DNA of 50,019 bases from a virus: IMG/VR virus record IMGVR_UViG_3300035698_027016, positions 1 to 50,019 of that record; one strand, 5' to 3'. Made by a program: the position numbers and the translations under genes. Below are positions 4,801 through 48,555 of the stretch, piece after piece. Numbering within the stretch: position 1 is the first letter of the stretch; each line of letters starts with the position of its first letter. A model generated the notes under the pieces. The model saw only the letters and a list, made by a program, of their open reading frames with translations. It ran no database searches and had not been told where the DNA came from.

Positions 4801-7800
4801 ATCCTTAACGCTAGCAACTACCTTCTTAGACTCAATAGAAGCAAGTTTCTCTTCTACTCTTTCTGTAACAACTTCAACTCCTTCGTTATCTTCTGTTGCT
4901 ACGTCAATCGCTGAAATAATAACTTCTGGATTAATAGTAACATCAGAAGCAACCTTTCTAAGATTACCAAGAATAGAATTTGTTATTTCCTTAGAACCAA
5001 TAGAAGCTACTTTGATCTTACCGCTCCAGAAAGCTAATCTTTCTGTGAAGTCAACTTTTTCTTCATTAACTTTCTCTAAGATTGCATTCCCAAGATTATA
5101 ACGATCTTTAGTAGAAGCAACTAGTGTTCTTGCAATACCTACAGCTTCTTCAGCGGTACACCCTGTTTCAATAACAGTATCAGCAAGACTAGCAATAACT
5201 GCCTGCATATGATCACTTGCACTCTTAAACATAGAAGAATCTCTATTAGCAGCTCTTGCCCATGGAGTATCAACAGCGTCTAACTGCTTTTCAGTAATAA
5301 CGTCCTTCTCAGTATGAATCCTATTCTCTCTAAGCTGACCTTGAGTAACCTGATCTGCTTCAGTATTATCTCTTACTGCTTCAAGCTGAACTTCACCAGT
5401 TACTTCTGGAGCGGCATCCCTTCTCGCATGAATACCATTATCAGATGACAACTGCTTCTCAGTAATAACATCCTGTTCACCAGTTCTAGAATGAAGACCT
5501 GTATCATTCTTAAGCTGCTCTTCGGTTGTACTGTCCTGCTCAACACCTGTCTGTGAGTGGTACAAGTCTCTAGCCTGTTCCAACTGTACTTCCTGTGTTA
5601 CTTCTGGGGCCTTGTTAACAGAAGATGCGCCTGCCTTTCTATTAATATCTGTCATCTGACTTCCTCCTTCTTTTATGTTTTTAAAACTATCAGAAAAAGC
5701 CTCTACAAAATATGCAGATGCTTTGTCTGGTGAATCTTTTATAATATCCTTCTCAACTTTAGATAAATCCTCATAAGTCCATACCTTACTATGTTGTGTA
5801 TCCCCCTTATCTTCCGCCACAATAATAAAACTGTCGCCTGTTTCCTTCACTGACAATCTCACCTTATTATTTTGGATGGATGACACCTTCCTTATATACG
5901 GTAAAAAGTCTTGTTTTTCCTGCCACAAACTTGATAAAACTTTCATTGCATCGTTTTTCTGGGCTTTTTTGGCAGAAAGCGTTCTTCTCTTAGGCATATT
6001 TTCCTCCTTATCTTCAAGAATTTTACCTATAAATTTATTTAATTCGGGTATTATACTTGCTATTTTTTTTAAATTATCGTTATCAAATGAAAGAATAGGC
6101 ATACTTGGCACCGTAGGCCTTTGCGGATTTGAAGACTTCATTCCAGAAGCTGTTCCTACTGGTGCCGCCTGAGTTGAAGATACTGGCATTGGAGCGGCAC
6201 CTGCGACTCCTGCTTGTGGTGATGGTGGTGGAGCTTGAGGAACTGCACCCTCTGGAGCTACTTCTGGAGCTACTTCTGGAGCTACTTCGCCCTCTGGTGC
6301 TTCTGCGTTACCTGGAATCTGCCCAAACCCTGCTCCAGTTAGCTCATCAACAAATGTCTGTAACTCTGATAAAATCTTAACCAAGTCGCTAGCAAAATCA
6401 ACCTCAATATTCTGCCTGTTTTGAATCAACTCAACAGCAATGTTCTCCAAGGTAGTTAATGCTGTATTTAAACTATCCAAATCCTCTTGGCTTGCTTCTT
6501 TCTGAATAGCAGCAGTCTTAATCATATAAAGGTTATTCTGTATATTTGCTACTTTCTTCATATAATCGTCATTAGAAAGAATAGTATCTATACGACAACT
6601 AGGACAAGCAGGATCAACTACGGCACTAAGCTCAATAAATTTGATTCCATGGTTATACTCAAATACTAGCTCGTTCTGGAAACTTTTCATTTCTCCAGTT
6701 ACAACATCTTTAGCATTACCAGAGAAATTCCTACCTTTTCTATTCCTAATGTGGCTGCAATTATGAACCGAGGTGTTATTTGCAACATAAGAATTTGATT
6801 CTGTTTCAAAATTATAAACTGGTCCCGAATATTCGACTTCGTCAATTGAATAAGATGTATGCTTAGAAAAGCCATCAATAGAGAATGCCTTTTTAATCCT
6901 TGAGACACCACTTACTTTTTTTGCAATACTTCTTGATTTTTGAGATTTTATGCTAGAATTGCTCAATGGTAAAGTTTGCAACGGAGCAATTGATACCCTG
7001 AATATCTCGGTAAGCCCCTCCCTGTCGTTTGGACCCTTGTTCTGCATATATGAGTAAATAGAAGGAGGAACACCCATTGTATTAAGCAAATACATTAACT
7101 GATGTGCCAAATTGCTACTCGCAGTTGTTAATATAAGTCTTCCATATTTATCACTATGACCATCACCATCTATATATCCAGCTAGTATCTCTTGAATATA
7201 CTGCTTAGACAGAGAGATTACTTTCGTTGATAGCGTCTTATTTTTAGCTAACCCATTGCAGGTTTCTTTTACAAGGTCAACAATAAACTGACTATAAATT
7301 CTAACACTAACCGCACGACGCTTTGGTTTTCTACTGATTACTTCTGGAGACTTGCCAATAAGATTTTCGCATATCGACTTGATTTCATTTATATAATCTG
7401 TTTCTTCCTCATGAAATGATAATTCCACACCGATATCCTTACTGTCGCTTTTCTTGCGAGAGTTATGAAGGAGGCACCCCTCAGCCACATAGTATCCTAT
7501 TAATTTAGATACCATCAGCCTGTTCTCCTCATTGTCTTCTATTCCATTATCTTCAAAAATATCAAATAACGAGTCATTGCATTTCAACTTAGGTATTGGC
7601 ATTAAAAGAGTTTCTTTATCATTCAGAAACTCACAAGGCATATATGTCAGTTTATCCCTACGCTCAACAAGAAATGGATGATTTGAAGTGCAGACTAACT
7701 CGCCATTAATCGCCTTAGATCTAATAGACTGGAGTACTCCTGAGACATTATGTTTAAACAACTCAACAACTTTAGTAGGTTTACCATAGGCATCCAGTAC

Positions 7801-10229: not shown

Positions 10230-13200
10230 CTATTTATTCTCCGCCATCATTTGCTTTAACATCATTTCTTTTTTCATGATGGACTTAAGTACTGTTTGCA
10301 TGACCTGTTCAATTCTCTTTTTAATTTCATCGTCTTTAAAACGTAAAATAGTCCATCCTAATTGAGCTAATTTACCATCTCTTTCTTTATCATGAGTCAT
10401 CTGCTTAGGATTAGAGTGGAACATTTCTCCATCCGCCTCTATCCCTAGCTTTAATTGAGGGATTGCAAAATCTAGTGGATACTCCTGAGAACCATATTGA
10501 ACAGGGAACTGAGGAATTACTCTATATCTTAATAATCCATCTTGCTGATATCTTGTTATACCATCTAATAGTTCCATCTCTGGCTCAGTAAAAACAACTC
10601 TACCTTTCTGATCTCTAGTTGGCCCCTGTGTCTTATTTTCTTGCCCATTTGGATTTTTAGCTAAAGTTTTTTTTTGCTCAGATTCTAATCTATCTCTAGT
10701 TTTCTTAGTTAAAATCTTTCCACCAAACTGAGAAGGATCAGCTGTAGATACTTGAGCAGTCTTAATCGCCCTGTTAGATGCCGCTGTGGCTGGCTCTCCT
10801 CCTGCTCCTGCCATTTCTCCACCGCCCATCCCTCCACCTAGGTCTCCGCCAATGTCTCCGCCAATTCCGCCAGCGGCCCCACCGCCCATCCCAGGCATTC
10901 CACCCATATCCCCACCAAAGCCGCCGCCCATCCCTCCAGCGTCCCCACCCATTCCTCCACCAAGGGCTTGCATTTGAAGGGCGTCATATCTTTTACGTTC
11001 AATTTCCTGATCTGGATTAAAATCAAATACTTCTAGTACTGTCTGAGCGGATAATAGTCCTTTTTCATACAGTTGTAATACAGATTGGCGATACTGCTGC
11101 TGATCCCTAAGATGCATAGAGTTCCATTTAATTGTAGGAACGATTAACTCTTCTTCTCCAGTATCTTCATCTATCTCTACAAAGCCTTGACGCCTTGCTT
11201 CTGGAAGATAAATACTATTCTCTACCCAAGCTGCAATTTCCCTGCGAAAACTCTCTAATCTTTCAATAGTAGATTCAATACCAATAGAGGCTGATGAATT
11301 TCCATGTATTCCGAACTTACCATTTCTTTCAGTAATAATAAAATGATTAGGAACTTCTACGCACCAAACTTTCCCTTCATAATCACAGTCAGAAATTACG
11401 CTATCTACCTTTTTAGAACGAGTATCTAATACTGGGAAATCACCAATTTGAGAATTTGGAGACCAATTTATATTATATTTTGTATTTAATTTATCACTGT
11501 CAAACTCCTCTGTATTAAATCGTGGGCTATACCCTAATTTGAACAGGATCTCAACTACGTCATCTCTTAATTGTCTAGAGGTAGTTGTATAGGTGTAATA
11601 TTTTTTATATGTGGGCTTCTTTTTTGTTGCGAACCTGATGCTTCCATCTCCATCTACTAAAGCTTCTAGTACAATTCTTAAGTTGTCACAGGACATGTTC
11701 TTAACTTCTTTTGGAATACATTTTGTCCCAGAATACCCGCCGCATTGTGTAGATAAATATTTTACAATCGCTTTATTTACTGGGCATTTCCCACCAGATA
11801 TAAGAAACGAATCTCTCCGTCCCATTTCTGAGAATATAACTCCTGAATTAACAAAGCCTTCCTTCATTTTGTTATACGTTTCAAGATTAGCCTCTTCGCT
11901 TTGGCTGATACTAACACCAAGCGCCTTTGTTTTAGCACGATTCCATTGCCTCCGCCCTTCACTAATATACCAACCCAATATCTTAAGAAAGTTTTCGGTT
12001 GGCATCCCGCAATATTCATTCTTATCTTTTGTTGTTTCGGCCCAATTATCGACACACGCCCTGAACCTGCCTCTTATTTTTACATCGGAAGCCTCTACAA
12101 CTTCCCACTCCCCAAACCCTTCTTTTTGGCCACCTTTTCCTGGCTTTGTTGTTAACTTTCTTGCAGCGCATAGCATTTTGTGATTAGGAGTAACAAGCAT
12201 ATCTATTCTATTTGTTTCAAAATGCTTTAACGGAAGATCGTCCCCGTCAATAGAGTTATAATTATATTCATACTTCCTAATAGCCTTTTGATATTCTAAA
12301 GCACCAGTCTCTTTATTAAACGTAGCTATTAGGTCTTTTTCTATGTCAATCTCATCTTTATATTTTAATCCGCTATCACAAAGTATTCTGCTGCAAGCAC
12401 TTAGACAATACGAGGGACCTTCACCGTTGAGAAGGGCGTTATTAATCATCATACCATCAAGGATTTCCTGATTAATAAACTCGAATTCGTTAGATAATGT
12501 TAATACTTTACCAGAGTTCCCTTGTACCGTTACCTTTCCGTTCCTTCTGGTGATAAAAAACCCATTAGGAACAGTAAAGCACCACACTTTTCCAACATAA
12601 CTTTCCCTAGTCATATTATCCTTAGAATTTAAAACTACAGTCGCTGGAATAGAACCATTATCATAATCAGAAGAAGACTTAATTGCAAAGTCACATTCAA
12701 CTTTCTCTACATAACTAGCTGCTGCATGTGTCCACTCATCGCTTCCTTCAACGTTTATAAGCATTTTATGATTAGGAGTAACAGATATGTCTACATCTTC
12801 AGCTTCAAAATGAACTAACTCTCCATCATAATCGTATTCATGATACTCTTGAGGCACATCATATTCAATACAATCTGTGTCTAGATTATACGTAGCTATT
12901 TTCTCATCATAATCTTTAGAAACCTCGGAATAAAACTTCCAGCCATTCTCTGTAAGTACCTCAGTATCAGGACGAAAACAAGCTCCATACCACTCTAGGT
13001 CAAAAGCATGATGGGTTACAATTGTTAAGTTAGGATCATTTGCTGTTTGGGCTAACTGCTCTTGAACCGCAGCAATATCAGCGGGGCCAGCAGGACGGTC
13101 ATCATTACCAACCTTTACAATCTTAATAGGAACAATTAATCTTTCTGCAACAATCCACTGGGCAACCATTAACTTTGTTTTATAAGAAAGAGTAGGGAAC

Positions 13201-15731
13201 AGCCTTCTAACCATACCTGTTCCGTATTTGGCGTAACCACCCTCTCCATACATTAAATGACTTACATTCCTATTATCAAGTCTAATCGGTTGACCTGAAG
13301 AAATCAAAGCTCTTACTTGAGGCGTTAGTCTTTCGCTACCAGGAGTTTTCCCAGATACCATATTGGTTAATTCTTCATCTGCCTTAAGTGCTATAACAGG
13401 TTCTGGATTCAAAGGAGACGTATATACCTCTACATAATCTGGATTTAAAATAACTATTCTTTTTACTGTTCCGCCATCATGTTCACATATCTCATCTCCA
13501 CAACGTCCAGACCCCCCACAATGCTCGCAGGAAATCTCAACGAACGGAAAACAATCCCCAAGCTTATGAATTTCATGACTCATTAATCTTAGCCATTTGG
13601 GAAGCTCTAATCTTTTCTTAAACTTGTCAAAGTAGTTCTTAACCATTCTATCTTTACATTCATGGGTGTAGTCATTCATCGGGAAATACGAATTATGTAC
13701 TGCAATTCTATTTACAACATAAGAATGGCAATTTTGGATAGATAAGTCATATAGTTCCCCATCATATATATATTCTTCTAAAGAATAGATCTTTCTATAA
13801 ATATAGTTTCCTTTAATAAGACATGGACTAACATCTTCCTGCTTCTCCCCGTATCCGCATGGAGTAAGAAGATAGTCCCCTTCCTTAAGCGTTCCAGACT
13901 GAACGAATTTAACTTCTCCGTCACGCTCTGTTAGCATTTCGTGGCCTTTTGTAACTTTAATCTTAGGAGTATAAACCCCTCCAACCCCTGCTATTTTAAT
14001 TTTTAGCATCTCTTCTTCGTCAGTGGACCTCTGATTTACTTTTTCTACCATATTAGCAGACCCGTCATGACTACGAACCATGTCCCCTTCTTTGATTGAA
14101 GAAATCCTTTTTTGACGCCCATCTGATAGTAAAACAAAAGAATCTGGCTCAAAACAATAAAAATCTATAGAGGCAGCAACCTTGGGTTCATTCTCATAAA
14201 AGAACCTAGAGTTAGAACAGACATACCCATCAGCAACTAAAGCATGCCTGTCGTTGGTCATTTCGATATCAAAACCCTTACCAGTATAAAGAAATTCTTC
14301 TATCTTTTCTATTGGGGAAGCCAAATATGTGACACCATCCTCTTCATAAAAGAATTTTAACTCACGTTCTTTTTTAGGTACAAAATTATTATGAGCCTTA
14401 TCTCCTCTCATATAAGGAGCAATAAGAGGAACCTGCGAACTAGGAATCAATATTCTATAGGCGCATTCAGAATCAGTCGGGTAATGATCGCCATATAAAG
14501 GATATTTACCAAGAGAACAAGTAATGCCGCATGAAACCAAAAGCCAATACATCTGATCAGCTAAATCCTTTGAATAGCAGTTAGAAATTAATCTTCCACC
14601 ACCGTTTTTGCCGCATGGCTTTTCTAAACATCCGTCTCCATCAAGGTATCCAGCTATGATACTAAGTCTAGCTTCTTTATCTAAATCAAATACAGCTTTA
14701 GATAGCCTTTTACTTATCCCTTTGTTTACAATATATTGTTTAAAGTAATTATTTGTTTCTTTAGTAGACGCCCTTACTCTCAACCCGTTGCCATCTCCAT
14801 GTTGCCTCGATGAAACAGTGCCAGAAAAATGCCTCTTTAACAACTCTTCACACTTCACCAAAGACACCTCGTCCTTACACCCTGTAAAGTGGACATCATA
14901 ACGCCCTTTGGTCCAACACAAACAACCGTCTGCCACACAAAGCCCTGTCAACCAAGCCAGTTCAGGATCTAAACTCTTTTTGCCGACATTAGGAACTGGA
15001 GTCAACAAATAGTCTTTTCTATTAACATCTTGAGCCTGTATCCGCCTGACTAGTTTATCTTCTATTTTAACTTTTTCAACGCCATTAGGCGTTACATCCT
15101 TCTTCGCCCTATACTTCTTTCCAGTAAGGACCTTCTTGTTTTTTCGATGAGCTTTACCATCTAATACAAAAATATAATGCTCTTCTGATATTCTTAATGT
15201 CCTCCAATTCCCAATAGGCTTAAAGCTAAAACATCTTTTATCTTCACAATCACGCATAGACATTCTTGGAGGCTGATTAAATGTTCCTTCAGAATTCATA
15301 ATCTCAGGATAATCTTCTGCTTCAAATATAAATCCACCAGCTACAACCGAATCCTCAATAATATCACTATATGTAAATGGTGTATTTTCTATTGGTGTAT
15401 ATGTGTAATTTGCTGTAAGTACTTGAGTATTAGGGAGATGTAGCCACTGATATTGTTCCAGGCGTTTTGAAGGAATCTGCCAGTTAATAGGCGTATGAAC
15501 TGGGGAAAAGAACTGAGGCTGACCATAAATAGTACCGCCGCCTGCAGCAGAAGCAACTTTATTTAATTCACCAGAATTGAATGCACCTCTACTGTTACCG
15601 CCTGATGGATAGTTCTGATTAGGGTATGAAAGGGCATCACTAGATCCTGATCTAATGTCTTGAGGGCGACCATTACGTAGAGCTGTAAACGCATGTTCTA
15701 AATTCGCCGTTTGTATGATCGGGTTTCCCAT
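10230..15731 (-). CDS. Portal protein with four inteins and a C-terminal DUF559/Vsr-like nuclease domain
   Basis: 1833 residues before splicing; removing inteins at 128-507, 526-680, 918-1072 and 1109-1478 leaves about 773. The extein reads as a tailed-phage portal: SRFFYENEPKVAASIDFY, SYFPMNDYTHECKD, WLRLMSHEIHKLGDCFPFVEI, a Cys-rich loop (CEHCGGSGRCGDEIC), NVSHLMYGEGG and AQWIVAERLIVPIKI. It would form the dodecameric DNA gate at the head vertex. A Gly/Met linker (about 1590-1645) leads to residues 1711-1833 with YPLDFAIP, KLGIEADGEMFH, a DKERD helix and LGWTILRF, the pattern of DUF559/Vsr-type PD-(D/E)xK endonuclease folds. That domain is not a normal portal part. RBS AAGGAG precedes the ATG and a TGTATAAT box lies just upstream. 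Confidence 0.9.
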   Translation of the reverse strand: MGNPIIQTANLEHAFTALRNGRPQDIRSGSSDALSYPNQNYPSGGNSRGAFNSGELNKVASAAGGGTIYGQPQFFSPVHTPINWQIPSKRLEQYQWLHLPNTQVLTANYTYTPIENTPFTYSDIIEDSVVAGGFIFEAEDYPEIMNSEGTFNQPPRMSMRDCEDKRCFSFKPIGNWRTLRISEEHYIFVLDGKAHRKNKKVLTGKKYRAKKDVTPNGVEKVKIEDKLVRRIQAQDVNRKDYLLTPVPNVGKKSLDPELAWLTGLCVADGCLCWTKGRYDVHFTGCKDEVSLVKCEELLKRHFSGTVSSRQHGDGNGLRVRASTKETNNYFKQYIVNKGISKRLSKAVFDLDKEARLSIIAGYLDGDGCLEKPCGKNGGGRLISNCYSKDLADQMYWLLVSCGITCSLGKYPLYGDHYPTDSECAYRILIPSSQVPLIAPYMRGDKAHNNFVPKKERELKFFYEEDGVTYLASPIEKIEEFLYTGKGFDIEMTNDRHALVADGYVCSNSRFFYENEPKVAASIDFYCFEPDSFVLLSDGRQKRISSIKEGDMVRSHDGSANMVEKVNQRSTDEEEMLKIKIAGVGGVYTPKIKVTKGHEMLTERDGEVKFVQSGTLKEGDYLLTPCGYGEKQEDVSPCLIKGNYIYRKIYSLEEYIYDGELYDLSIQNCHSYVVNRIAVHNSYFPMNDYTHECKDRMVKNYFDKFKKRLELPKWLRLMSHEIHKLGDCFPFVEISCEHCGGSGRCGDEICEHDGGTVKRIVILNPDYVEVYTSPLNPEPVIALKADEELTNMVSGKTPGSERLTPQVRALISSGQPIRLDNRNVSHLMYGEGGYAKYGTGMVRRLFPTLSYKTKLMVAQWIVAERLIVPIKIVKVGNDDRPAGPADIAAVQEQLAQTANDPNLTIVTHHAFDLEWYGACFRPDTEVLTENGWKFYSEVSKDYDEKIATYNLDTDCIEYDVPQEYHEYDYDGELVHFEAEDVDISVTPNHKMLINVEGSDEWTHAAASYVEKVECDFAIKSSSDYDNGSIPATVVLNSKDNMTRESYVGKVWCFTVPNGFFITRRNGKVTVQGNSGKVLTLSNEFEFINQEILDGMMINNALLNGEGPSYCLSACSRILCDSGLKYKDEIDIEKDLIATFNKETGALEYQKAIRKYEYNYNSIDGDDLPLKHFETNRIDMLVTPNHKMLCAARKLTTKPGKGGQKEGFGEWEVVEASDVKIRGRFRACVDNWAETTKDKNEYCGMPTENFLKILGWYISEGRRQWNRAKTKALGVSISQSEEANLETYNKMKEGFVNSGVIFSEMGRRDSFLISGGKCPVNKAIVKYLSTQCGGYSGTKCIPKEVKNMSCDNLRIVLEALVDGDGSIRFATKKKPTYKKYYTYTTTSRQLRDDVVEILFKLGYSPRFNTEEFDSDKLNTKYNINWSPNSQIGDFPVLDTRSKKVDSVISDCDYEGKVWCVEVPNHFIITERNGKFGIHGNSSASIGIESTIERLESFRREIAAWVENSIYLPEARRQGFVEIDEDTGEEELIVPTIKWNSMHLRDQQQYRQSVLQLYEKGLLSAQTVLEVFDFNPDQEIERKRYDALQMQALGGGMGGDAGGMGGGFGGDMGGMPGMGGGAAGGIGGDIGGDLGGGMGGGEMAGAGGEPATAASNRAIKTAQVSTADPSQFGGKILTKKTRDRLESEQKKTLAKNPNGQENKTQGPTRDQKGRVVFTEPEMELLDGITRYQQDGLLRYRVIPQFPVQYGSQEYPLDFAIPQLKLGIEADGEMFHSNPKQMTHDKERDGKLAQLGWTILRFKDDEIKKRIEQVMQTVLKSIMKKEMMLKQMMAENK
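11298..12407 (-). mobile_element. Portal intein D (LAGLIDADG endonuclease)
   Basis: Residues 1109-1478 (370 aa). It begins with Cys (CLSACSRILCDSGLKYKDEI), carries block B LVTPNHKMLCA, the endonuclease motifs ILGWYISEG (1251-1259) and LEALVDGDG (1355-1363), block F VWCVEVPNHFIITERNG and ends GIHGN before +1 Ser. Splicing would join GEGPSY to SSASIGIESTIERLESF. Confidence 0.92.
12516..12980 (-). other. Portal intein C (mini-intein)
   Basis: Residues 918-1072 (155 aa), no endonuclease. Begins CFRPDTEVLTENGW, block B ISVTPNHKMLINV, block F VWCFTVPNGFFITRRNG, ends VTVQGN before +1 Ser. The penultimate residue is Gly instead of the usual His, as in intein D. Its block B and F are so like those of intein D (TPNHKML, GKVWC, ITxRNGK) that the two probably share a recent ancestor. 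Confidence 0.9.
13692..14156 (-). other. Portal intein B (mini-intein)
   Basis: Residues 526-680 (155 aa), no endonuclease. Begins with Cys (CFEPDSFVLLSDGRQKRI), block B KVTKGHEMLT, block F ELYDLSIQNCHSYVVN, ends RIAVHN before +1 Ser. Splicing joins AASIDFY to SYFPMNDY. Only 18 extein residues separate it from intein A. Confidence 0.92.
14211..15350 (-). mobile_element. Portal intein A (LAGLIDADG endonuclease)
   Basis: Residues 128-507 (380 aa). The C-terminal end is clear: FDIEMTNDRHALVADGYVCSN before +1 Ser (SRFFYENEP). The endonuclease motifs are LTGLCVADG (261-269) and IAGYLDGDG (359-367); block B is LRISEEHYIFV. I place the N-terminus at Ser128 (SVVAGGFIFEAED), which fits block A spacing but lacks the usual Cys1, and the penultimate residue is Ser rather than His. 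The N-terminal junction is the least certain of the seven inteins. Confidence 0.82.
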
Positions 15732-15776: not shown

Positions 15777-17201
15777 CTACACTTCATTTATGGAAAAATC
15801 TGGAGAATCAGAAGTGACAGGTGCCTCTATTCCCTCTAGTTCATCCATTGAGATATCGCTACCTACATCTTTAGTAGCAAGTTCAGGATCTATACCCTCA
15901 GGAAACATAAGCTTTTGGGCATTACCAGAATTACCTGATGTATCTTTTACTACAAAAACACGTTTACCTAGAGAATTCTGGATTTCCTGTAATGTTGTAT
16001 TTTGCTCTAGCTCAGTAGTCCCTATCGGATTTCCGTTATTATCAACTACAGTCATTTGCTCATTACTTGTCAACTGTACCCCTTCGTCGTTAAAAGCTAC
16101 CTTATTAAGAGTCTCTTTTTTATAGGCTACTTTATTAAAAGCTTTTTTTTTAGAAGCTTCACAAGTACTGCATGAATAAAGGACTCCATCATGATTTGCC
16201 TTTACCTGAATAGCGAAGTTCTTAATATTAGCGACTTTAGCTATAGGCATTTTATAATGTTCAGACACCTTTAATATAATAGCTTTGTCGTCAATACCAG
16301 CTGTACGCATATCTAGGATATCAGCGAAAGCCTTAGTTACTACATCTTTCTCTGTATCTATAGCCTTGGCCTGAATACCTACAAATTCATCTTCTATATC
16401 CGAAATATATTTTATATCAGAATCTTTTGCTGAATTATTTTCGCTACCAGTAATAATAACTCTTAAACCATCAGCAGCAGCTCTTAATGGAAGAATATCC
16501 TCAGTCTTTTCGTTTCTAGCTTCCTGCAACCTTCTTTCGATAGAGTACTGATGAGGTCTTGGCTTTCTAGTTCTTTCTCCATTAGCTAGTTCCATTTGGT
16601 TTCCGCCTAAGTCATGATAAACCTTGAATCTATCATTAATATAGCCGCCCACAACTCTACCTTTGTCATCCTTATAATCTCTATAGAACTTATCCATGAC
16701 ATATCTGCGCCATAGAGCTTCGCCACTATATACATGGTTTGGGTCGTCATCAAAGGACAGCATATCTGGATTACGATGAGTAAAGTCATAAATTGCATCC
16801 CTATCTTTTCTCCACGGGGTTCCAACATACTTATTATCATCCTCTCTACCAGTATAAGGCGAAGAAGGTGGTCGTGTAACCTGTGCTTCCCTTATGCTAA
16901 AGTTATTAATCTGACTAGTCTTTTTATTCATAAAACCTTCCTCTTTTATTTCGGTTATGTTATATCTTGATAAAATCACAAACAAATTTTCTGACGCTTC
17001 TTCTATATCTTTATCAAATCTAGTGCTTTTTCCCTCTTTTTTTATTTGAGTATTTAAATCAAATATTGTTTGACACGCCTGTTTAACTGACAAATCATCA
17101 TTAGATCCGATCACTTCAATAATATTATTACTTGCAGTTTCAGGATTCCCATTGCCTAAAACCCAATTCTTTAAATCATTTAAACTTGTAAAAAATCTCA
17201 T
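15777..17201 (-). CDS. Unknown virion-associated protein
   Basis: A 474-residue protein of unknown family. The N-terminal 90 residues are helical; a middle part rich in Tyr, Arg and Asp (PYTGREDDNKYVGTPWRKDRD, YDFTHRNPDMLSFDDDPNHVY) follows; then a helical segment with KVANIKNFAIQVKAN, two Cys in CSTCEASKKKAF and a run of KVA-type motifs (AFNKVAYKKETLNKVAF); the C-terminus is acidic and ends DSPDFSINEV. No membrane segment. It overlaps the tagged gene upstream by ATGA, so they are co-translated. The K-V-A motifs resemble those in the protease and portal and may be maturation sites. Function unknown; head or internal virion protein is the best guess from context. Confidence 0.7.
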   Translation of the reverse strand: MRFFTSLNDLKNWVLGNGNPETASNNIIEVIGSNDDLSVKQACQTIFDLNTQIKKEGKSTRFDKDIEEASENLFVILSRYNITEIKEEGFMNKKTSQINNFSIREAQVTRPPSSPYTGREDDNKYVGTPWRKDRDAIYDFTHRNPDMLSFDDDPNHVYSGEALWRRYVMDKFYRDYKDDKGRVVGGYINDRFKVYHDLGGNQMELANGERTRKPRPHQYSIERRLQEARNEKTEDILPLRAAADGLRVIITGSENNSAKDSDIKYISDIEDEFVGIQAKAIDTEKDVVTKAFADILDMRTAGIDDKAIILKVSEHYKMPIAKVANIKNFAIQVKANHDGVLYSCSTCEASKKKAFNKVAYKKETLNKVAFNDEGVQLTSNEQMTVVDNNGNPIGTTELEQNTTLQEIQNSLGKRVFVVKDTSGNSGNAQKLMFPEGIDPELATKDVGSDISMDELEGIEAPVTSDSPDFSINEV

Positions 17202-17707
17202 TTATCTAATCCTAATTTTCTATTTTCTTCTCTTTTTCTTAAGAAATCTTGCCTATATTGCTCTTTAGAGTCTTCAAGTAAACTATTCAGCTGATTAAAC
17301 CTTTGTGTATCTGTTTGAGGGTTAAAGTTAGCCATGAACTCAGATAAAGCGACTTGACCCTCTGGAGAACCCATGAATATCTGCTTAATATCATCAGGTA
17401 AAAAAGACTGATATTTAGATATCTCTGAAAGCATTGACTTATTAAGTTCATCTAAATCAGTGGTCATTAAACTTTCTTTTCCGTCATCTACCCTTATCTC
17501 GTCAGATTTCTCTTCTATTTCTTGCTGCTCATTGGTTTGTTCTTCGTCTTGATCTCCAACCTCAGGAAGTTCAGCATCTACTTCTGCAACCTCTTCAACT
17601 TGCTCAATTTTTGTCTCTTCGGCTTGTTTAAAAACTTTTCCTATTCTAAGCCACTCTGATTTACTTATTTTAAGTTGAATTCCAGAAGAAGTTTTAATTA
17701 TTTTCAT
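17198..17707 (-). CDS. Acidic protein with N-terminal KTSSG-SKSEW tag
   Basis: I choose the ATG at 17707 because AGGAG lies 5 bases upstream and because it begins the shared tag (MKIIKTSSGIQLKISKSEW, then LRIGKVFKQA). The 169-residue protein then has an acidic, low-complexity stretch (about 30-80, Glu/Asp/Gln-rich) and a helical C-terminal half (LDELNKSMLSEISKYQSF...RKREENRKLGLDK). No known domain. The tag is shared with three other proteins here whose bodies are unrelated, so it is probably a sorting or processing signal. It overlaps the next gene downstream by ATGA. Confidence 0.75.
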   Translation of the reverse strand: MKIIKTSSGIQLKISKSEWLRIGKVFKQAEETKIEQVEEVAEVDAELPEVGDQDEEQTNEQQEIEEKSDEIRVDDGKESLMTTDLDELNKSMLSEISKYQSFLPDDIKQIFMGSPEGQVALSEFMANFNPQTDTQRFNQLNSLLEDSKEQYRQDFLRKREENRKLGLDK

Positions 17708-17744
17708 TATATCTCCTGTACTTATTCTAAACACAATAAAGCAT

Positions 17745-17939
17745 TCACCACCTGCCTAAAACTGGCCTATCTTTATACTTAAGATGAGGCCTCAGTATCT
17801 CTAACTGCTTAATGGTTTTTTTAATATCTATTTTAGCTTTACCCACATAATTCATATTAAGATGATCTAAAGCTTCTTTCATCAGATCATAAATTTTTTC
17901 AATATCTGAAGCGTTATATGCTATTTTTTGAATTTTCAT
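17745..17939 (-). CDS. Small helical protein, MKIQKIAYN
   Basis: From the ATG at 17939 this is 64 residues (MKIQKIAYNASDIEKIYDLM...), almost entirely predicted helix, basic at the C-terminus (HLKYKDRPVLGRW). The start overlaps the end of the ArdC-like gene by 26 bases; GAG lies 7 bases upstream. An upstream ATG at 18005 would give a longer, unlikely N-terminus reading through the neighbour. The opening MKIQKIA recalls the MKI/MKL-K-x-A openings of other genes in this block. Function unknown. Confidence 0.6.
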   Translation of the reverse strand: MKIQKIAYNASDIEKIYDLMKEALDHLNMNYVGKAKIDIKKTIKQLEILRPHLKYKDRPVLGRW

Positions 17940-19626
17940 GTTCAAACTCATATAAAAACGGTATGGATGCCACTGCTGCAACCTTAAATAGCCCCAATGT
18001 CCCATAAAGACTACCAGATGAAGCCAAAGCCTCTTGCCTATCGCTATTCTGAACTGATACCTCTGGAACTCCCTTCTCTTGTTCTGTACGACCTGTCATT
18101 TGCTGAGACATGTACTGATCAACACCTTCAAACATTTCAATAGCTGCCTTTCTGATATAATTAAATCTAGCCAATATCTTACTCTTATCAGCACCAAAAC
18201 CAGCAAGATAAACAGGAGAGTCTTTAGATTCAATATGGTAATGAGAACAAACCACATATGCAGTAGATTCCGCATCAGTTTCCCTATCTTCCTTACTAGA
18301 ATCTTGCCTTGAAAACTCAGGGTCAAAATGGATCAATTGATGTGCTATCTCATGAAATAGGGTTTTAACCTTAACAAGCCCCTCTGATTTACTATTCAGC
18401 GCTATCTTACCGTTTAAACTAGCATATCCACCTGCCGTGTCCATATTTTCTGTTTCTATTCTAAACTTTTTCTCTGTTGTTGCCCAATTGTAAGCCGATT
18501 CATACAGTTGACTTAACCATTCCGTAGCGTCATTGCTGTCAATCTTCCACTCTGGAGGCTCAAAAGGCCCATTCCCTTTATATTTACCGCTCTTAGAGAT
18601 CCAACCTGGTATTGCCTCTGTGTCCTCATAAGCTATAGCGGCACCAAAACCAAACCTCGTTCTTCCCTTAGATGCTATTTCCTGTTTGGTTAAACCCTGC
18701 TTCTCTTCCTCGCTTAAACTTTTGCCTTTAATTGGGAACATAATCGGTATTCTTGTCGCTTCAATCTTAGGAACTCTACCCATCCTCTTCCAGTTGTCTT
18801 GACTTGCAACATATGACGCCATTGGTTTCATAATAGCAATCATAGCGCTATTCCAAAAGCTATAATTATGAAATTTAGAAGATGCTGTTAATAAAGACTT
18901 TATTATTGCTTGAGATTGCTCACTTGATGCGTCAGATTCAGCCATTTCCCCAACCTGCTCTAATGCATTATGAATAATTTCGCTATATTTCTTACTTCTA
19001 TCCGCTGGAGATAACTTTTGGGCAGCTTCCATCTCGTTATGCCAGTAAATCATCTCGTCAGGTATCTCTGCTTCTTCTAGATTTGTGTTTTCAGCTACTT
19101 GTCTTTCGTGCGAACCAGCTACTTCGCCTTCAGTAGGACCAGTGTCAAGGACTGAGACGTCAACACCCTTAGACATTAACTCCGATTTTACCTTCTGTAA
19201 CTTATCTTGATCTATTTCTGGACTTTTATATTTATTAACAACTTTGCTCCAAGTCCATTCGCCAATAACTCTATTTTTAAAAGCTTTATATCCCGCCGCC
19301 TTAAGCTCAGCAGATAAAGGTTTAGCGGTATTTTTTAATATAACAAAAGAAAGAGTTCCATATTTTGTTTCTTTTGACTCAAAAACAACCTCCACCTGAG
19401 ACCATAAATCTGCAGGATTCATCTGCTCCTGTGTGTCAGCCTCTTCTCTAGCTGCATTAGGGTCCCAAGACATAGGATTAGGTGGAGCATCTATGGTGTT
19501 TTCTGGAGCAACTTCTTCCTGTACCTCTTGGGCAATTTTATTCCAACCAGCTTGCTTTCCAAGATTACGCCATTCTGACTTAGATATTTTCAGAATACGA
19601 CCTGAGGCTGTTTTAATGAGCTTCAT
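17914..19626 (-). CDS. ArdC-like antirestriction zincin with N-terminal tag
   Basis: 570 residues. Residues 1-28 are the shared tag (MKLIKTASGRILKISKSEW, then GKQAGW). A small mixed domain follows (about 70-165). From about residue 235 comes an ArdC-like N domain (FHNYSFWNSAMIAIMK, VASQDNWKRMGRVPK, RIPIMFPI), then a zincin-type metallopeptidase region with FHEIAHQLIHF (HExxH) and a downstream DAESTAYVVCSHY helix that supplies the third ligand and acidic residue. ArdC-family proteins protect invading plasmid or phage DNA from restriction. A late, virion-type gene position plus the tag suggests it is packaged and injected; that is inference. RBS AGGAG precedes the ATG. The C-terminal tail (FKVAAVASIPFLYEF) is weakly hydrophobic. 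Confidence 0.8.
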   Translation of the reverse strand: MKLIKTASGRILKISKSEWRNLGKQAGWNKIAQEVQEEVAPENTIDAPPNPMSWDPNAAREEADTQEQMNPADLWSQVEVVFESKETKYGTLSFVILKNTAKPLSAELKAAGYKAFKNRVIGEWTWSKVVNKYKSPEIDQDKLQKVKSELMSKGVDVSVLDTGPTEGEVAGSHERQVAENTNLEEAEIPDEMIYWHNEMEAAQKLSPADRSKKYSEIIHNALEQVGEMAESDASSEQSQAIIKSLLTASSKFHNYSFWNSAMIAIMKPMASYVASQDNWKRMGRVPKIEATRIPIMFPIKGKSLSEEEKQGLTKQEIASKGRTRFGFGAAIAYEDTEAIPGWISKSGKYKGNGPFEPPEWKIDSNDATEWLSQLYESAYNWATTEKKFRIETENMDTAGGYASLNGKIALNSKSEGLVKVKTLFHEIAHQLIHFDPEFSRQDSSKEDRETDAESTAYVVCSHYHIESKDSPVYLAGFGADKSKILARFNYIRKAAIEMFEGVDQYMSQQMTGRTEQEKGVPEVSVQNSDRQEALASSGSLYGTLGLFKVAAVASIPFLYEFEHENSKNSI

Positions 19627-22706: not shown

Positions 22707-23438
22707 TTATTTTTCGTAATCCTTAGTAAGAAGATCTACGTAATCAGCTGGATAGCCAAGCGTGTTCTTCCAATAATTAGATAATTCAGCTCTATTCTTA
22801 GGGCTAATTTTAGCAAATCTCTGGAATTCTTCATTAGAACCAGCATAAACTACTTCCTCTTCACCTTCATCTTCCTTAACTTCTTCTACAGAGTCAGCAA
22901 CTTCGTCAGCAACAAATTCAGTTGTGTCTTCAGTTCCCTCTTCAACGCCCATTTCCTCATGAACCTCTTCAACTGTACCGACTGCTTCTTTAACCTTATC
23001 AAGAGCCTCTTCCGCGTCTACCACTTCCTCTAACGCTCCTTCAATCTCTTCAACTGCTTCCTTGATCTTCTCAACGGCGGCTTGCTCAACGACTTCCTCT
23101 TCCTCTTCAGTCACAACGCCGTCTTCTTTAACCTTATCAAGAACTTCTTCAGGATCTTCTTCAGGATCTTCGTCAATCTCAACTTCAATTGAGTCAGACC
23201 CTTCGTCTTCAGCAACAGTATCGCCACAGGCCTCAACATCTGTGTCTGTGTCTGTGTCTGCTTCTAATACTTCTTTAGCTTCAGCCTCTGCTTGACGATC
23301 AATGACGCCCTGAGCAGCTTCTAGCAACTCGTCTCTTTCTGGAACTTCCTCGCCATCTACGCCAGCTGTCTTTACTAACTTAGGTTCTTTAGGACTCCAA
23401 TCGTGTCTATTTTTACCTGCAGGAACTATCATACTCAT
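22707..23438 (-). CDS. Very acidic coiled-coil protein (scaffold-like)
   Basis: From the ATG at 23438 (GGAG 6 bases upstream) the protein has 243 residues. It opens with MSMIVPAGKNRHDWSPKEPK and a K-T-A motif (LVKTAGVDGEE), continues with ~170 residues made mainly of Glu, Asp, Val and Ala (long helical or coiled-coil acid stretch, DTDTDTD and EDPEEDPEE runs), and ends with a more ordered basic part (FQRFAKISPKNRAELSNYW...LLTKDYEK). There is no recognisable domain. Such composition fits a scaffold or internal head protein. It is followed by a strong terminator, so it closes a transcription unit. Confidence 0.7.
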   Translation of the reverse strand: MSMIVPAGKNRHDWSPKEPKLVKTAGVDGEEVPERDELLEAAQGVIDRQAEAEAKEVLEADTDTDTDVEACGDTVAEDEGSDSIEVEIDEDPEEDPEEVLDKVKEDGVVTEEEEEVVEQAAVEKIKEAVEEIEGALEEVVDAEEALDKVKEAVGTVEEVHEEMGVEEGTEDTTEFVADEVADSVEEVKEDEGEEEVVYAGSNEEFQRFAKISPKNRAELSNYWKNTLGYPADYVDLLTKDYEK

Positions 23439-23497
23439 TTCATTCTCCTTCTTATTAAAAGGCAAACGCTGCCTTGTTATTTACTAAAAAATATAAC

Positions 23498-23788
23498 TTA
23501 TTTTTCTTTACCTAACCCCATCTTTTGTACCGCTGGAGTCTTCGCGTCAAGTCTCTCAGCTGATTTTTTGCCATCAGGAACATTACTGTACTTCAATACC
23601 CAGTCCCCTTTGTCACCCGCTTCGTTGTACTCTTCCGCACACTCTATCCATGCCTGCTGAGGTGATCTTCCATCATCAGCTTTGCATTTGTAACAAATCT
23701 GCTTAGCTTTTGTCTCCGCTTGCCAATAACCTCTTGCGCCCTCATAAAAGGCCTTCTTTCTAAACTTTTTAAGGTTAAATTTTTCCAT
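23498..23788 (-). CDS. Small Cys-containing protein, unknown
   Basis: 96 residues from the ATG at 23788, chosen over the ATG at 23794 because GGAG is then 7 bases away. It is basic at the N-terminus (MEKFNLKKFRKKAFYEGARG), has CYKCKADDGRSPQQAWIEC, which could bind a metal, and ends with a K-x-A motif region (SAERLDAKTPAVQKMGLGK). No known family. It sits alone in the minus-strand run with short gaps on both sides. Confidence 0.65.
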   Translation of the reverse strand: MEKFNLKKFRKKAFYEGARGYWQAETKAKQICYKCKADDGRSPQQAWIECAEEYNEAGDKGDWVLKYSNVPDGKKSAERLDAKTPAVQKMGLGKEK

Positions 23789-23845
23789 AATCATTCTCCT
23801 ATTTAATATATTTCAACCTTTATTAGATTTACCCTCTAAAAAAGT

Positions 23846-24733
23846 TTAAATATTATTTTCTCTATTCCATGCGATTATATTTCCTGAAACATCCTGCGTT
23901 GGATCGCTTCTCAAAACCTCTGTAAGATGTATTATATTATTTAAAATAAAAGTTTTTTCGCCTGGCGCACACTCCCAAGGTTTTCCGTCAGGGTTCACAC
24001 CAGAGACAAAAGGCGAAACATCCATCAACCTAACCATTTCTCCATTGCTACCTTGTTCAAAGGTGAAGTTAGGATTCCCTCTACAAATTCTAGGTAGCAA
24101 AACCATTCCATGCTCTTCTGTTTGATAGAAAACCAACATATCAACCATTCTATCTCTATTAATTAGAAGCTTATTATGGTTATTCATTCTAGAAAACCTT
24201 TTCTTAAAACCACCTGTTACCTGTGAATCGCTAAAAGTTGCAGATGGTTCTTTTTTTTCTTGTTGCTGTTGTTCTGGGTCAACCCCCTTTTGCCGCCCCC
24301 CCTCTTGCCCCTCTTGTCCTTCTTGTAATCCTTCTTGTAAATTTAAATCGTTGTCTACATTACCTAGGTTCTGTGCGACTCTGATTTCTCTATTCCCTAA
24401 AGTGATTCCACCCAAGCCCACTTTAGACCCTACTTTTAAATCATTTTTATCAAACCAACCCCTATTAACCTCCAAAGCATACATACATGGAGTTGAAGAA
24501 GTAATGGCTCTAGTACTCATGGGAATCATTTTCTCTATCTGAAATATCTTCCCGTAATCGTCTATAAAAGCGATATCTAATGGGATATAGGTGTTCTGCA
24601 TCCAAAAAGACCTATAATTGGCGCTTAAATATTTAAATAACATTCCCGAATTATCGCCAAGAGACTTTCGGTCCATTAGCCCATAATTTCTTTTCGTAGG
24701 ACTATCTGCAAGTTCAATATGTAAAATAGCCAT
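23846..24733 (-). CDS. DUF192-domain protein with long C-terminal extension
   Basis: 295 residues. The first ~105 match DUF192: LHIELADSPTKRNYGLMDRK, GMLFKYLSANYRSFWMQNTYI, LDIAFIDDYGKIFQI and ALEVNRGWFDKNDLKVGSKV. DUF192 proteins are usually small secreted or lipid-anchored bacterial proteins of unknown function; here there is no signal peptide. After a Gln/Gly/Glu-rich linker (about 130-165) comes a second domain (LLINRDRMVDMLVFYQTEEHG...FILNNIIHLTEVLRSD) that I do not recognise. GGTGAGTA precedes the ATG. A cytoplasmic or virion DUF192 fused to another domain is unusual. Confidence 0.8.
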   Translation of the reverse strand: MAILHIELADSPTKRNYGLMDRKSLGDNSGMLFKYLSANYRSFWMQNTYIPLDIAFIDDYGKIFQIEKMIPMSTRAITSSTPCMYALEVNRGWFDKNDLKVGSKVGLGGITLGNREIRVAQNLGNVDNDLNLQEGLQEGQEGQEGGRQKGVDPEQQQQEKKEPSATFSDSQVTGGFKKRFSRMNNHNKLLINRDRMVDMLVFYQTEEHGMVLLPRICRGNPNFTFEQGSNGEMVRLMDVSPFVSGVNPDGKPWECAPGEKTFILNNIIHLTEVLRSDPTQDVSGNIIAWNRENNI

Positions 24734-24740
24734 TACTCAC

Positions 24741-25037
24741 CTACCATTTAGGTCTAGATTTCTTTTTCTTCTTCTTGTTCCCTCTACTATCATAGCCATA
24801 CTTATCGTACTTATCCTCATCTTCATCTTTTTCTCTCTCGTCCATTTCTTGAAAAGGGATGCCGCCGCTATCTAATAGGTCTTCAACCATCTCAATCATA
24901 TACTCTTCACATTCAAGCATTAAACCCCTACCATTATTTCTGTAGTCTACCTTTACCCCGACTGGAAAAGTTAAAGAACACGCTCCTTCCTCTAATATTT
25001 TTTGAATTTTCTTTGGTAATTCTGCATAGATTTCCAT
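24741..25037 (-). CDS. Small unknown protein with acidic then basic tail
   Basis: 98 residues. The N-terminal ~60 look like a compact alpha/beta domain (MEIYAELPKKIQKILEEGAC, VGVKVDYRNNGRGLML, YMIEMVEDLLDSGGIPF), followed by an acidic run (EMDEREKDEDEDKYDKYG) and a Lys cluster (NKKKKKKSRPKW). GAGG lies 7 bases before the ATG. It is 7 bases from the DUF192 gene, so they are probably one transcript. Function unknown. Confidence 0.7.
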   Translation of the reverse strand: MEIYAELPKKIQKILEEGACSLTFPVGVKVDYRNNGRGLMLECEEYMIEMVEDLLDSGGIPFQEMDEREKDEDEDKYDKYGYDSRGNKKKKKKSRPKW

Positions 25038-25784: not shown

Positions 25785-28325
25785 CTATAACTCCAAAATC
25801 TTATCAAGACCAAACAGTTTGAATAAATCCATGCCCCTATCGTACCCTTCCTCAAGCACAGACTGCCGACCAACAATTAATCGTTCATCTGATAAACTCC
25901 CTCCAAATAAAAGATGAACATTATTTTTCATTTCAGTTGCTAATTCAGGCTCTATCTCAAACCCATATCTAACCTTAAATTTTAATGCTCTTAATATTAT
26001 AAGGGGGTTCTTAGAAACTACATATTTCGGATCAAAAAAGGTTCTGATAACTTTATTATTAATATCCTCAAACGAACGCTTGCATACATCGTATATTTTC
26101 CCGTTTAAAACGTCATAAACCAACATATTTATAGTAAAGTCTCTATTATATATGTCGTTATTTAAAGGAGTGGTGGGAATATTCTGCTCTCTCATTTTAG
26201 ACCTAATCTCAATAGGAGAAAAGTTCCCTTTGAAGTCTATTTTTAACCCTTTATAATAAAATGATAATGTCATTGTTCTATGATAAATTTGAGCATCTCT
26301 AACATTTAGTCTCTCAGCAACCAATCCGCCTATCTTTAAGCTTTGGTTTGGCCATGCCGCGCTAAAATCTAAGTCCTTCACAGAGCCAAGAGGACGCTGC
26401 ATATGAAGGTCTCTTGTGAAACCCCCTACCAAGTACATGTCTTTAACCCCATACTCCCCACAGGTCTCCTTAACGGCCTCAACCACCTGTCTAATAACCA
26501 TCTCTCTATTTTTATTAACACCCAATAATTTTTCTATTAACCCTTTTTTCTCTTCGTCAATATCTTTACTTACGCTAATATATTTTTCAACCTTTCGGAT
26601 GTCATCAATATCTACCTTATTTGACGCAAGCCATAGGGCATAAATACTTTCTTCGAAGTCACCCTTTACTTCTGCGGCTACAATTTGAAACCTGCCTTCA
26701 CCCTCAAAAATTTTATGAATAAATCTTAAAATATCATCTGTAACCAAAAACCGAGTACTTAATATCTTTTTATCCAAAATACTTTTCTTTGCAACTCCAA
26801 TAACCTTAAGAATTAACTTGATGTCTTTCCAGTCAACATCTCCATCATTATCCATATCGTTATTTATGCCTACTGAAGCTACAGCTAATCTACTATTTGG
26901 ATAAATGTTGTTTCCCGCCCCTGCCGCTGGATAAGGCCAACCTCTAATGTTATCTAAGACATAATACATCCCGTTAGAGTTATATGATGGGTTATATCTC
27001 GATTGCTTACGAACATCTGCCTCTTCATTTACAAAAGATTCATCTGCCTCTTCCCACTCCATAACCCTGTCTCCCATTCCCTTGAGAGTTGTTCCGTCTC
27101 CTATATCTAAATTGTTCATCCACCCAAAAGATGTAGCTTCCTTTTTCATCTTGGAACCCTTATAAGAGATTATTTTACCCCTGCTGTCTCCTGCAAGAAG
27201 CATAATGGGTTTAGGCCTTGTTTCATCTAACAAACCCTCTAACGAAGTATATGCTAGATTTTCAACATGACCCATGCTCAATATTTCTTCAATGCTATCA
27301 TGAGGGTCTAAACGCTCATTATCTCTAGTTATTTTCCTTAGTTGAAGCTCTATACTGTCATTCTCTTGGCTTAGATCGCTAGGCAAAGGGGACATAAACT
27401 GACGACCAAGTTTCTTCTCTAATGGAATACTCTGCTGCTCTTGAGATAACATGTCCCAAGGCGCTCTCCCCTGATGATTTCCGATATTATTAGACGGGAA
27501 CCTACCAGTTAAGTCAGAACCCCTTGGAGTCTCAAAAAAAGACCTTGGAGCAAAAGACTGAGCTGTTTTATACCAATTATTACCAGATGCAAAAGACCCA
27601 AATCCGACTTGAATAGGCACAAACTCTTCTGGTTCGCCTTGAAAAGAACTTTTATACCTAGAATTAATTTCATCTAATTTGTCATTTAAAAAGGTTTGCT
27701 CTGCGGCTGCTGCTCCGCCTTCATCGGCCCCCAGCCCATGCGCAGCCTCATGTACTATGGTTGCTGCCACATTAATTAGAACCAACCATTCTCTCTTCCC
27801 CTCGTCAAACACAGCACCATTACTAGTTGCTATAGATACATTTTTAGCGACATCGTCATCTACGGCACTCTTAATATCATGCATATTTAATCCAAAAGCT
27901 ACTCCACCTAAGTTCTGAAGCCTCGAACTTGCATTCTTCATATCTTGGTCAATTTGAGCCGCATCTCTTTTACCAGTAGGATCAATAGCTGTGATACTGC
28001 CATTTTCTCCACTTTCTACTTCATAACCCATGTCTGCCAATTCAATTTCTAATCTTTTATCTTTAATTGCTTCGCTAAGTTTATCAATATATACGCCATA
28101 AGCTCCAGACTTAGAAAAATCGAAAATATAAGCAACATCTCTTAAATAGTTTGAATTATGGCTATTAACTAAAGCGACTGCCTCGTCCACTCTGCTAAAA
28201 TAACTCCTTAACCTAGAAACATCTACAGCAGATGTACCTAAACTGCGAGGAGCTGCCTCTGGGATTTCTTCAGGGTGGAACCCCGCAAAATCATCCGCTA
28301 TTTTATTTATCTTACCAATTTTCAT
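25785..28325 (-). CDS. Zincin / EF-hand (dockerin-like) / CCA-type nucleotidyltransferase fusion
   Basis: 846 residues, three recognisable parts. About 1-230: helical region with VAATIVHEAAHGLGADEGG, an HExxH zinc-protease motif (His192, Glu193, His196) followed by acidic residues. About 485-505: NNDMDNDGDVDWKDIKLIL, a dockerin/EF-hand-like calcium loop. About 620-800: class II poly(A)/CCA-adding nucleotidyltransferase features: DMYLVGGFTRDL, then LGSVKDLDFSAAW (DxD metal site), and NRDFTINMLVYDV. Linkers carry K-x-A motifs (NNWYKTAQSF, MKKEATSFGW). The opening MKIGKINKIADDF resembles its neighbours. It may be processed into separate virion enzymes. What the transferase acts on is unknown: host tRNA repair or damage, or simply a degenerate relative. 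Confidence 0.78.
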   Translation of the reverse strand: MKIGKINKIADDFAGFHPEEIPEAAPRSLGTSAVDVSRLRSYFSRVDEAVALVNSHNSNYLRDVAYIFDFSKSGAYGVYIDKLSEAIKDKRLEIELADMGYEVESGENGSITAIDPTGKRDAAQIDQDMKNASSRLQNLGGVAFGLNMHDIKSAVDDDVAKNVSIATSNGAVFDEGKREWLVLINVAATIVHEAAHGLGADEGGAAAAEQTFLNDKLDEINSRYKSSFQGEPEEFVPIQVGFGSFASGNNWYKTAQSFAPRSFFETPRGSDLTGRFPSNNIGNHQGRAPWDMLSQEQQSIPLEKKLGRQFMSPLPSDLSQENDSIELQLRKITRDNERLDPHDSIEEILSMGHVENLAYTSLEGLLDETRPKPIMLLAGDSRGKIISYKGSKMKKEATSFGWMNNLDIGDGTTLKGMGDRVMEWEEADESFVNEEADVRKQSRYNPSYNSNGMYYVLDNIRGWPYPAAGAGNNIYPNSRLAVASVGINNDMDNDGDVDWKDIKLILKVIGVAKKSILDKKILSTRFLVTDDILRFIHKIFEGEGRFQIVAAEVKGDFEESIYALWLASNKVDIDDIRKVEKYISVSKDIDEEKKGLIEKLLGVNKNREMVIRQVVEAVKETCGEYGVKDMYLVGGFTRDLHMQRPLGSVKDLDFSAAWPNQSLKIGGLVAERLNVRDAQIYHRTMTLSFYYKGLKIDFKGNFSPIEIRSKMREQNIPTTPLNNDIYNRDFTINMLVYDVLNGKIYDVCKRSFEDINNKVIRTFFDPKYVVSKNPLIILRALKFKVRYGFEIEPELATEMKNNVHLLFGGSLSDERLIVGRQSVLEEGYDRGMDLFKLFGLDKILEL

Positions 28326-32006: not shown

Positions 32007-32423
32007 TTAGGCAAGATCAAGGTCGTTTTTACTTTTGTTTATTTCCCACCACCTAAGTCCTGCAGGTGTTTTGGAGGCTGTCTCATAGGGTTCATCTTCT
32101 ACTGGACTATTAAGCAGTCTTTTTTCCTCTAACTTGCCAATGTCGCCTTCATATGCACTAGGGTTCCTATACTGACCATCAAAACTCGCTTTTTTAGTAT
32201 CTAGGCCCCTTTCAGTAATCATAAAATCGTTAGAAGCCTTTCTGTTTTGATTCAATAAACCCTCTAAAGTGGTGTTTGGTTCTCCAACTCTATTCCCCTC
32301 TAACTGAGACTCGTTAATAGTATCAGGCTCAACGTTACCTTTATTCTCTTCGTTCAAACGATACTCAATCATATCGTCTCCATTGACCTTACGATAGTCT
32401 TTTAAATTAAACTTACTTGTCAT
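32007..32423 (-). CDS. Small hydrophilic protein with TExQL-type repeats
   Basis: 138 residues, very hydrophilic, probably unfolded. It repeats short units like TINESQLEGNRVG, TTLEGLLNQNRKA and MITERGLDTKKA, which resemble the TEKQL repeats in the scaffold part of the prohead protease fusion. It contains K-A-S sites (RKASNDF, KKASFDG) and ends ETASKTPAGLRWWEINKSK. AGGAG precedes the ATG. Shared repeats suggest the two proteins work together in head assembly, but this is inference. Confidence 0.65.
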   Translation of the reverse strand: MTSKFNLKDYRKVNGDDMIEYRLNEENKGNVEPDTINESQLEGNRVGEPNTTLEGLLNQNRKASNDFMITERGLDTKKASFDGQYRNPSAYEGDIGKLEEKRLLNSPVEDEPYETASKTPAGLRWWEINKSKNDLDLA

Positions 32424-43038: not shown

Positions 43039-43105
43039 TGCAGGAAACCCTCTTGTACAATTAGAAATACATAGATATAATTCTAATAACAAGAGAGAAA
43101 ATCCT

Positions 43106-48513: not shown

Positions 48514-48555
48514 AAGTTATTGTCCATAGGAACCGCTTAACCCACTTCAAACTCA

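Follow-up and report, generated by a model that had tools for sequence, protein, structure and literature searches.

Why should four otherwise unrelated proteins of one virus begin with the same sequence? The question is raised by IMG/VR virus record IMGVR_UViG_3300035698_027016, whose complete 50,019 bases, probably a piece of a larger genome, form the window analyzed here. The four genes, all present on the minus strand, lie at 17198-17707, 17914-19626, 47438-48013 and 48010-48513. An earlier note on this DNA had guessed, by analogy, that their shared N-terminal sequence is a capsid-targeting propeptide. We now favor that reading, with a probability of roughly 0.6: the sequence, which we call the long tag, would be a cleavable propeptide that targets proteins to the phage head, similar in action to the capsid-targeting sequence (CTS) of phage T4. 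What can be read from the sequences argues for it, namely the modularity of the tag, its largely viral confinement, its sites in head operons, an end motif (K-x-A) shared with other head proteins, and its exchange for a second, shorter tag. Because it is carried by dozens of unrelated proteins and usually ends in an apparent protease cut sequence, the long tag probably sends proteins into the head.

One N-terminal sequence on four proteins

The four N-termini align across about 33 residues, and the bodies behind them differ. M1, K2, K5, T6, S8, S15, E18, W19 and G23 are invariant in the alignment, and GW occurs in three of the four sequences, as the earlier note had said. The six possible pairs give local alignment scores of 71-99 (z 12-19 against shuffles), whereas the best score for any other two N-termini of the window is 38, which bears out the claim of a shared beginning. 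A profile of the tag finds exactly four places in the window, namely these four.

The acidic protein at 17198-17707 has 169 residues when read from the ATG at 17707 (an open reading frame [ORF] starting with GTG is longer, to 17734), and its gene shares 4 bp with the beginning of the next head gene. Its tag (17609-17707; profile E 2.5e-15) has the core SKSEWLRIGK, with neither GW nor K-x-A. The 570-residue protein at 17914-19626 carries its tag at 19528-19626 (E 5.7e-18), ending in GWNKIA/Q, where the slash marks the apparent cut. The other two genes overlap each other by 4 bp. The tag of the 167-residue protein at 48010-48513 (48415-48513; E 7.2e-19) ends in GWVKEA/Q, and that of the 191-residue protein at 47438-48013 (47918-48013; E 3.2e-19) has GW, continuing as GWTRHTR with no K-x-A end.

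None of the four proteins has a significant Pfam match. The earlier label of ArdC-like zincin for 17914-19626 draws some support from a HEIAH motif seen by eye and from a weak match to the phrog_87 metallo-protease family (E 0.003), and we list the protein as a probable ArdC-N plus HExxH metallopeptidase. However, its ArdC-N match (16.6 bits, E 0.0096) falls below the curated cut-off of 22.6, and the AlphaFold model of the body is unusable, with a mean predicted local distance difference test score (pLDDT) of 37; the ArdC-like identity is therefore plausible and not firmer. A viral scan for relatives of this body returned none, and a PDB sequence search gave no match.

The tag in other viruses

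Searching with a DNA pattern for EW..IGK.AGW, one that leaves the K-x-A end free, recruited a further six viral contigs, and several of these have tagged ORFs in tandem clusters. With broader patterns and a 23-column profile, 22 of the 23 records searched were positive, at 1-7 matches each. Some tag-positive contigs are near-duplicates of each other; in all, the module occurs in about 20 viral contigs besides the window. The sole negative among the 23 is the huge phage LR745208; the tags are also absent from phage G, Rctr197k, Tunturi_5 and I3, and tblastn of the tag against INPHARED gave no match. Chance or low-complexity similarity of the N-termini has negligible probability and can be taken as refuted, given pair scores far above both shuffles and all other N-terminus pairs and the independent finds in other contigs.

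Is the tag instead a domain common in cytoplasmic proteins outside phages, as the earlier note had considered? Scanning 257 Gb of prokaryotic genomes produced one real match, on a 9.7-kb contig where three ORFs are tagged; two other hits (L111 and L113) were chance matches. The contig belongs to a metagenome-assembled genome (MAG) of Planctomycetaceae that is one of the 22 positive records; it holds all three matches of that MAG and is probably phage DNA. A further 198 genomes from the class of this MAG all lack the long tag. Given this single real match and the empty class genomes, the tag module is largely phage-restricted, and a common non-phage domain is not what we find.

The end of the tag and the head protease

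The long tag has the consensus h-x-h-[ST]-[KR]-x-[ED]-W-x-x-[ILVM]-G-x3-G-W-h-K-x-A, and in many copies MK[IL]xKTASGK lies upstream of this core. The earlier description, about 28 residues at the N-terminus, thus needs adjusting: the shared stretch stands, but its essential element is a core of about 22 residues plus K-x-A, and while 51 of 58 distinct copies are N-terminal, the core may also be internal or C-terminal. W.K.A ends 36 of the 58 distinct tags, a share biased upward because two of the scans that recruited relatives demanded K.A in their pattern; W.K-x-[SG] ends 7 more. The W.K.A end is present in 18 of the 26 tags from the window and from contigs whose recruiting pattern did not include K-x-A.

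The same motif is concentrated in the presumed processing enzyme and its presumed substrate. The gene at 1885-8922 (minus strand) encodes a head maturation protease and a scaffold-like polyprotein, with inteins. Residues 64-149 (8476-8733) match phrog_18299, head maturation protease (E 6.3e-8), which is the domain similarity expected of an HK97-type enzyme; the long remaining region we infer to be scaffold from its position and motif content. The protein contains 17 [KR]-x-A-[SQ] sites versus 2.6 expected, an excess shared by its homologues, and the motif is near expectation in the window's ribonucleotide reductase, ATPases and other genes. In an unbiased scan of eight protease/scaffold proteins, K.AS ranked first of 4457 x.yz patterns (63 observed, 7.8 expected), compared with 47 observed and 25.9 expected in a control set, 152 long ORFs other than these from seven contigs. 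Twenty-five motif columns are common to at least three of five protease/scaffold homologues.

Comparable sites recur in other proteins. Portals of six phages begin with a divergent leader of 50-74 residues that ends at [KR].A immediately before the conserved core. The window's portal protein, with inteins, lies at 10230-15731 (minus strand; phrog_16240, E 1.8e-26), and its leader (residues 1-60, 15552-15731) ends in ELNKVA/SAA, with an equivalent site before the core in five relatives. Gene 22707-23465 (minus strand, start codon uncertain) has a leader at 23364-23465 ending in LVKTA/G, where relatives have [KR]TA/S. In 29236-30303 (minus strand), Ala148 of RVNRVA/Q (29860-29862) stands just upstream of a trypsin-like domain, and three relatives have an equivalent [KR]VA site. 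The proteases of six relatives themselves start with M..K.A[ST]. The phage head protease appears, from these motifs, to cleave behind K/R-x-A, with S or Q as the usual next residue.

Such sites could also be read as precursor-cleavage or activation sites for a phage protease, with a tag that holds proteins in an inactive state or flags them for processing and has no part in packaging. K-x-A at internal boundaries, such as the one before the trypsin-like domain, and at C-termini would suit this explanation, but it accounts neither for a conserved 22-residue core upstream of the cut nor for the positions in head operons, and we consider it very unlikely. KTAS at tag residues 5-8 was tried as a second cut site and dropped, as the structure model places a hairpin turn there and several tags have no KTAS.

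A second tag and tag swaps

Many other ORFs of the tag-bearing contigs start with M-(x)-N-W-[YF]-K-x-A-[QN], a short tag with the same K-x-A end as the long one. Within the first 50 residues of ORFs we counted [NS]W[YF][KR] 61 times, versus 20 times elsewhere in a fourfold larger amount of sequence. The exact DNA pattern for MNWYKxAQ is found in 29 stretches of IMG/VR and in 0 of 199 cellular genomes. Like the long tag, the short one is also found internally and C-terminally. In the window, NWYKTAQ forms residues 250-256 (27558-27578) of the 846-residue protein at 25785-28325 (minus strand), with an equivalent string in two relatives, and MYSWYRQA (43106-43129, plus strand) starts a SleB-like cell wall hydrolase at 43022-43972 (Hydrolase_2, E 7.7e-7). 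We found no description of either tag in open-access papers.

The two tags replace one another on homologous proteins. Glucose-6-phosphate dehydrogenase (G6PDH; above the Pfam cut-off in both cases) has the long tag, without a K-x-A end, in G010 and MNWYKWAQ in G011. These phage-borne enzymes with different N-terminal tags are encoded at L147:6296-7657(-) and L153:14179-15501(+). An 850-residue ATPase-zincin carries the core at its C-terminus in G006, and its homologue in L195 (35% over 823 residues) has MNWYK near the N-terminus.

Phage G (L183, 3304-44131) lacks both tags, yet gp7 and the portal are among its head-region proteins with an excess of [KR].A[SQ]. For this reason the tags may have arisen later than the protease motif.

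Bodies and putative cargo

After removal of the tags, 60 tagged ORFs fall into 57 clusters by BLAST or 54 by phmmer, in agreement with the earlier claim of unrelated bodies under a shared beginning. Tandem clusters of tagged genes, present in G002, G006 and G011, would be expected if the tagged proteins were one fast-evolving paralogous family of which only the N-terminus is still recognizable. That is hardly credible, and we reject it on the number of body clusters; moreover, G6PDH (above the Pfam cut-off) is found among the bodies together with HATPase-like and metalloprotease-like proteins, the tags differ between homologues, and the core also occurs internally and C-terminally.

Among the Pfam-supported bodies, mostly on short-tag proteins, are G6PDH, 2-hydroxyacid dehydrogenase, DnaJ, cell wall hydrolase, an AAA_33 P-loop protein and ART-PolyVal, the last (E 1.2e-17, above the cut-off) on a protein starting with MNWYKKAS. 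Injection is known or predicted for ART and ArdC-type proteins (PMC5512222), and in favor of the capsid-targeting reading some of the putative cargo domains, ART above the cut-off and ArdC-like below it, match proteins of these kinds.

Two small modules recur on or near these proteins. One, CWxGYKxxGxKxxxGKxVPNCVP, is found in L157 (G007 24159-24914), L153 (G011 48513-48668), L160 (G008 6040-6525) and L070:271-1038; three of the proteins have it directly behind a tag or a GWLKEAK string, and the fourth has no tag. The 51-residue G011 protein is a tag plus this module and little more. The other, KWVDI...PCGR...YPKCRPSKK, occurs in L167 (G015 10763-11158), with a tag core near the C-terminus of the same protein.

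Position in the head operon

Tagged genes occupy varying slots of an otherwise syntenic head operon. Two of the window's tags lie between genes 15777 and 19637. Homologues of window genes 23498 and 23846 flank the tags of G001 and G003, and those of 25054 and 25785 flank six tags of G002. The other two tagged genes of the window (47438-48513) are outside the head operon, as are some tags in relatives. The capsid proteins of G002 and of Bacillus phage G share 56% identity.

Unrelated bodies are also typical of sorting signals in general, and tags on G6PDH, 2-hydroxyacid dehydrogenase, DnaJ and a hydrolase might suggest that the tag directs proteins elsewhere in the infected cell, to a compartment like the phage nucleus or to a membrane, its K-x-A end being coincidental. 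With tagged genes inside head operons and a terminal motif identical to the scaffold and portal sites, we regard this as distinctly unlikely.

Several other features of the region were noted. Inteins with LAGLIDADG domains interrupt both 1885-8922(-) and 10230-15731(-), and some relatives have shorter, intein-free copies; the ribonucleotide reductase at 37379-40900 has a long insert relative to homologues. A homing-endonuclease-like ORF on the opposite strand (635-1831, plus) adjoins the protease gene, at a place where relatives have capsid genes; G019 has a homologue of this ORF. A third shared N-terminal motif, FNLK-x-[FY], occurs in 32007-32423(-) and 23498-23794(-), in head-operon proteins of G001, G002, G003 and G018, and on a 1116-residue ORF of G002.

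Proposed mechanism and its weight

How might such a tag work? Late in infection, it would dock a cargo protein onto the core of the assembling prohead, probably onto the protease/scaffold polyprotein. The head protease would then remove the tag at its W-h-K-x-A end, alongside the processing of scaffold and portal, and the freed cargo would stay in the head and enter the next host with the DNA. The short MNWYKxAQ tag would do the same job. The docking partner, the cleavage itself, packaging and injection are all steps that we infer.

Several points weigh against a cleavable propeptide. Six internal tags and one C-terminal tag are unlike a classical N-terminal propeptide. Cleavage cannot be universal, since 15 of the 58 tags, including two of the four in the window, have no W.K.[ASG]. 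The protease specificity itself is read from motif enrichment. Metabolic enzymes such as G6PDH are unexpected as head cargo, and some relatives with similar capsid proteins carry no tag. For none of these phages did we find proteomics of virions or N-terminal sequencing. Finally, a structure model of the tag (pLDDT near 80 for residues 1-25) folds residues 2-25 into a beta-hairpin and a helix ahead of flexible sequence, and such a predicted fold would also fit a docking domain that stays attached.

The main rival is a small folded domain that is retained and ties unrelated proteins to a common partner, which could be the scaffold, the capsid interior, the tail or a host protein; it would be a module for virion attachment or complex assembly and not a propeptide. 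The predicted fold, the internal and C-terminal placements and the tags without K-x-A would all be natural for such a domain. However, most tags end in the motif that is enriched in the protease/scaffold protein, and the short tag keeps W-h-K-x-A without the folded part and substitutes for the long tag on homologues. We therefore judge a retained domain unlikely, and continue to prefer a cleavable head-targeting propeptide.

It is tempting to go further. A lineage of large uncultured phages might have a general zip code for the head, with two interchangeable tags, one protease motif, and a large, fast-changing cargo, including metabolic enzymes such as G6PDH, that is delivered at infection; this wider proposal is possible, and we offer it tentatively. 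If it is right, the injected cargo of uncultured large phages could be read from sequence, any tag-bearing protein would be a candidate early effector, and a testable role would emerge for many "hypothetical proteins" in such phages. A T4-like cargo system would then exist in a phage-G-like lineage, with a predicted cut site for its head protease, and short tags would be available for loading chosen proteins into phage heads.

Comparison with known systems

Several known systems resemble the present one in part. Encapsulin cargo loading uses short peptides. The loading of enzymes into the HK97-fold shell of encapsulins is a dedicated process (PMC8346489), like the loading proposed here. Encapsulins, however, are bacterial compartments, with no virus head and no protease processing. 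Herpesvirus assemblin cleaves between Ala and Ser, and we know of no cargo tag system in herpesviruses. In assemblin the protease is fused to the scaffold and releases itself at a release site (PMC4498786), a likeness in arrangement to 1885-8922, but in a eukaryotic virus, unlike the phages here. The polyvalent proteins of phages and conjugative elements, for which co-injection with DNA is predicted or known (PMC5512222), have ArdC-type, metallopeptidase and ART domains that also occur, or may occur, in tagged proteins. They combine many disparate domains in one polypeptide, whereas the proteins here are mostly small and separate under a common tag, with no multidomain matches among those scanned.

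SPN3US and phiKZ are likewise large phages, with propeptides on inner head and portal proteins and with identical N-termini on the diverged paralogues gp53 and gp54, according to sections of two papers (PMC5694885, PMC10052503). In contrast to the motif here, their cut follows glutamate (A-X-E or S-X-E), and in these sections the propeptides are mostly long and individual, with no tag common to dozens of unrelated proteins reported.

The T4 system is the closest in action, and the first 10 residues of its CTS suffice to package a foreign protein. Propeptides of 10-19 residues direct its internal proteins and are then cut off, an anti-restriction protein and the ADP-ribosyltransferase Alt are packed in this way, and the T4 protease has the motif near its own N-terminus (PMC9026906). 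An IPIII sequence with Asp at position 10 is reported to be uncleavable and still to bring a reporter into heads (PMC9026906). As on IPI, IPII, IPIII and Alt, a short N-terminal sequence here sits on differing (here putative) cargo and usually ends in a (here predicted) head protease motif; the cargo varies between phages and includes, here by prediction, anti-restriction and ADP-ribosyltransferase types. However, the two show no evident sequence relation, and gp21 and its relatives cut after glutamate, whereas the tag here ends in K-x-A. Because sequence and cleavage residue differ, the long tag is not a member of the T4 CTS family. It differs further in its internal and C-terminal placements, its two interchangeable forms, its larger number of tagged genes, and its association with a phage-G-like capsid protein.

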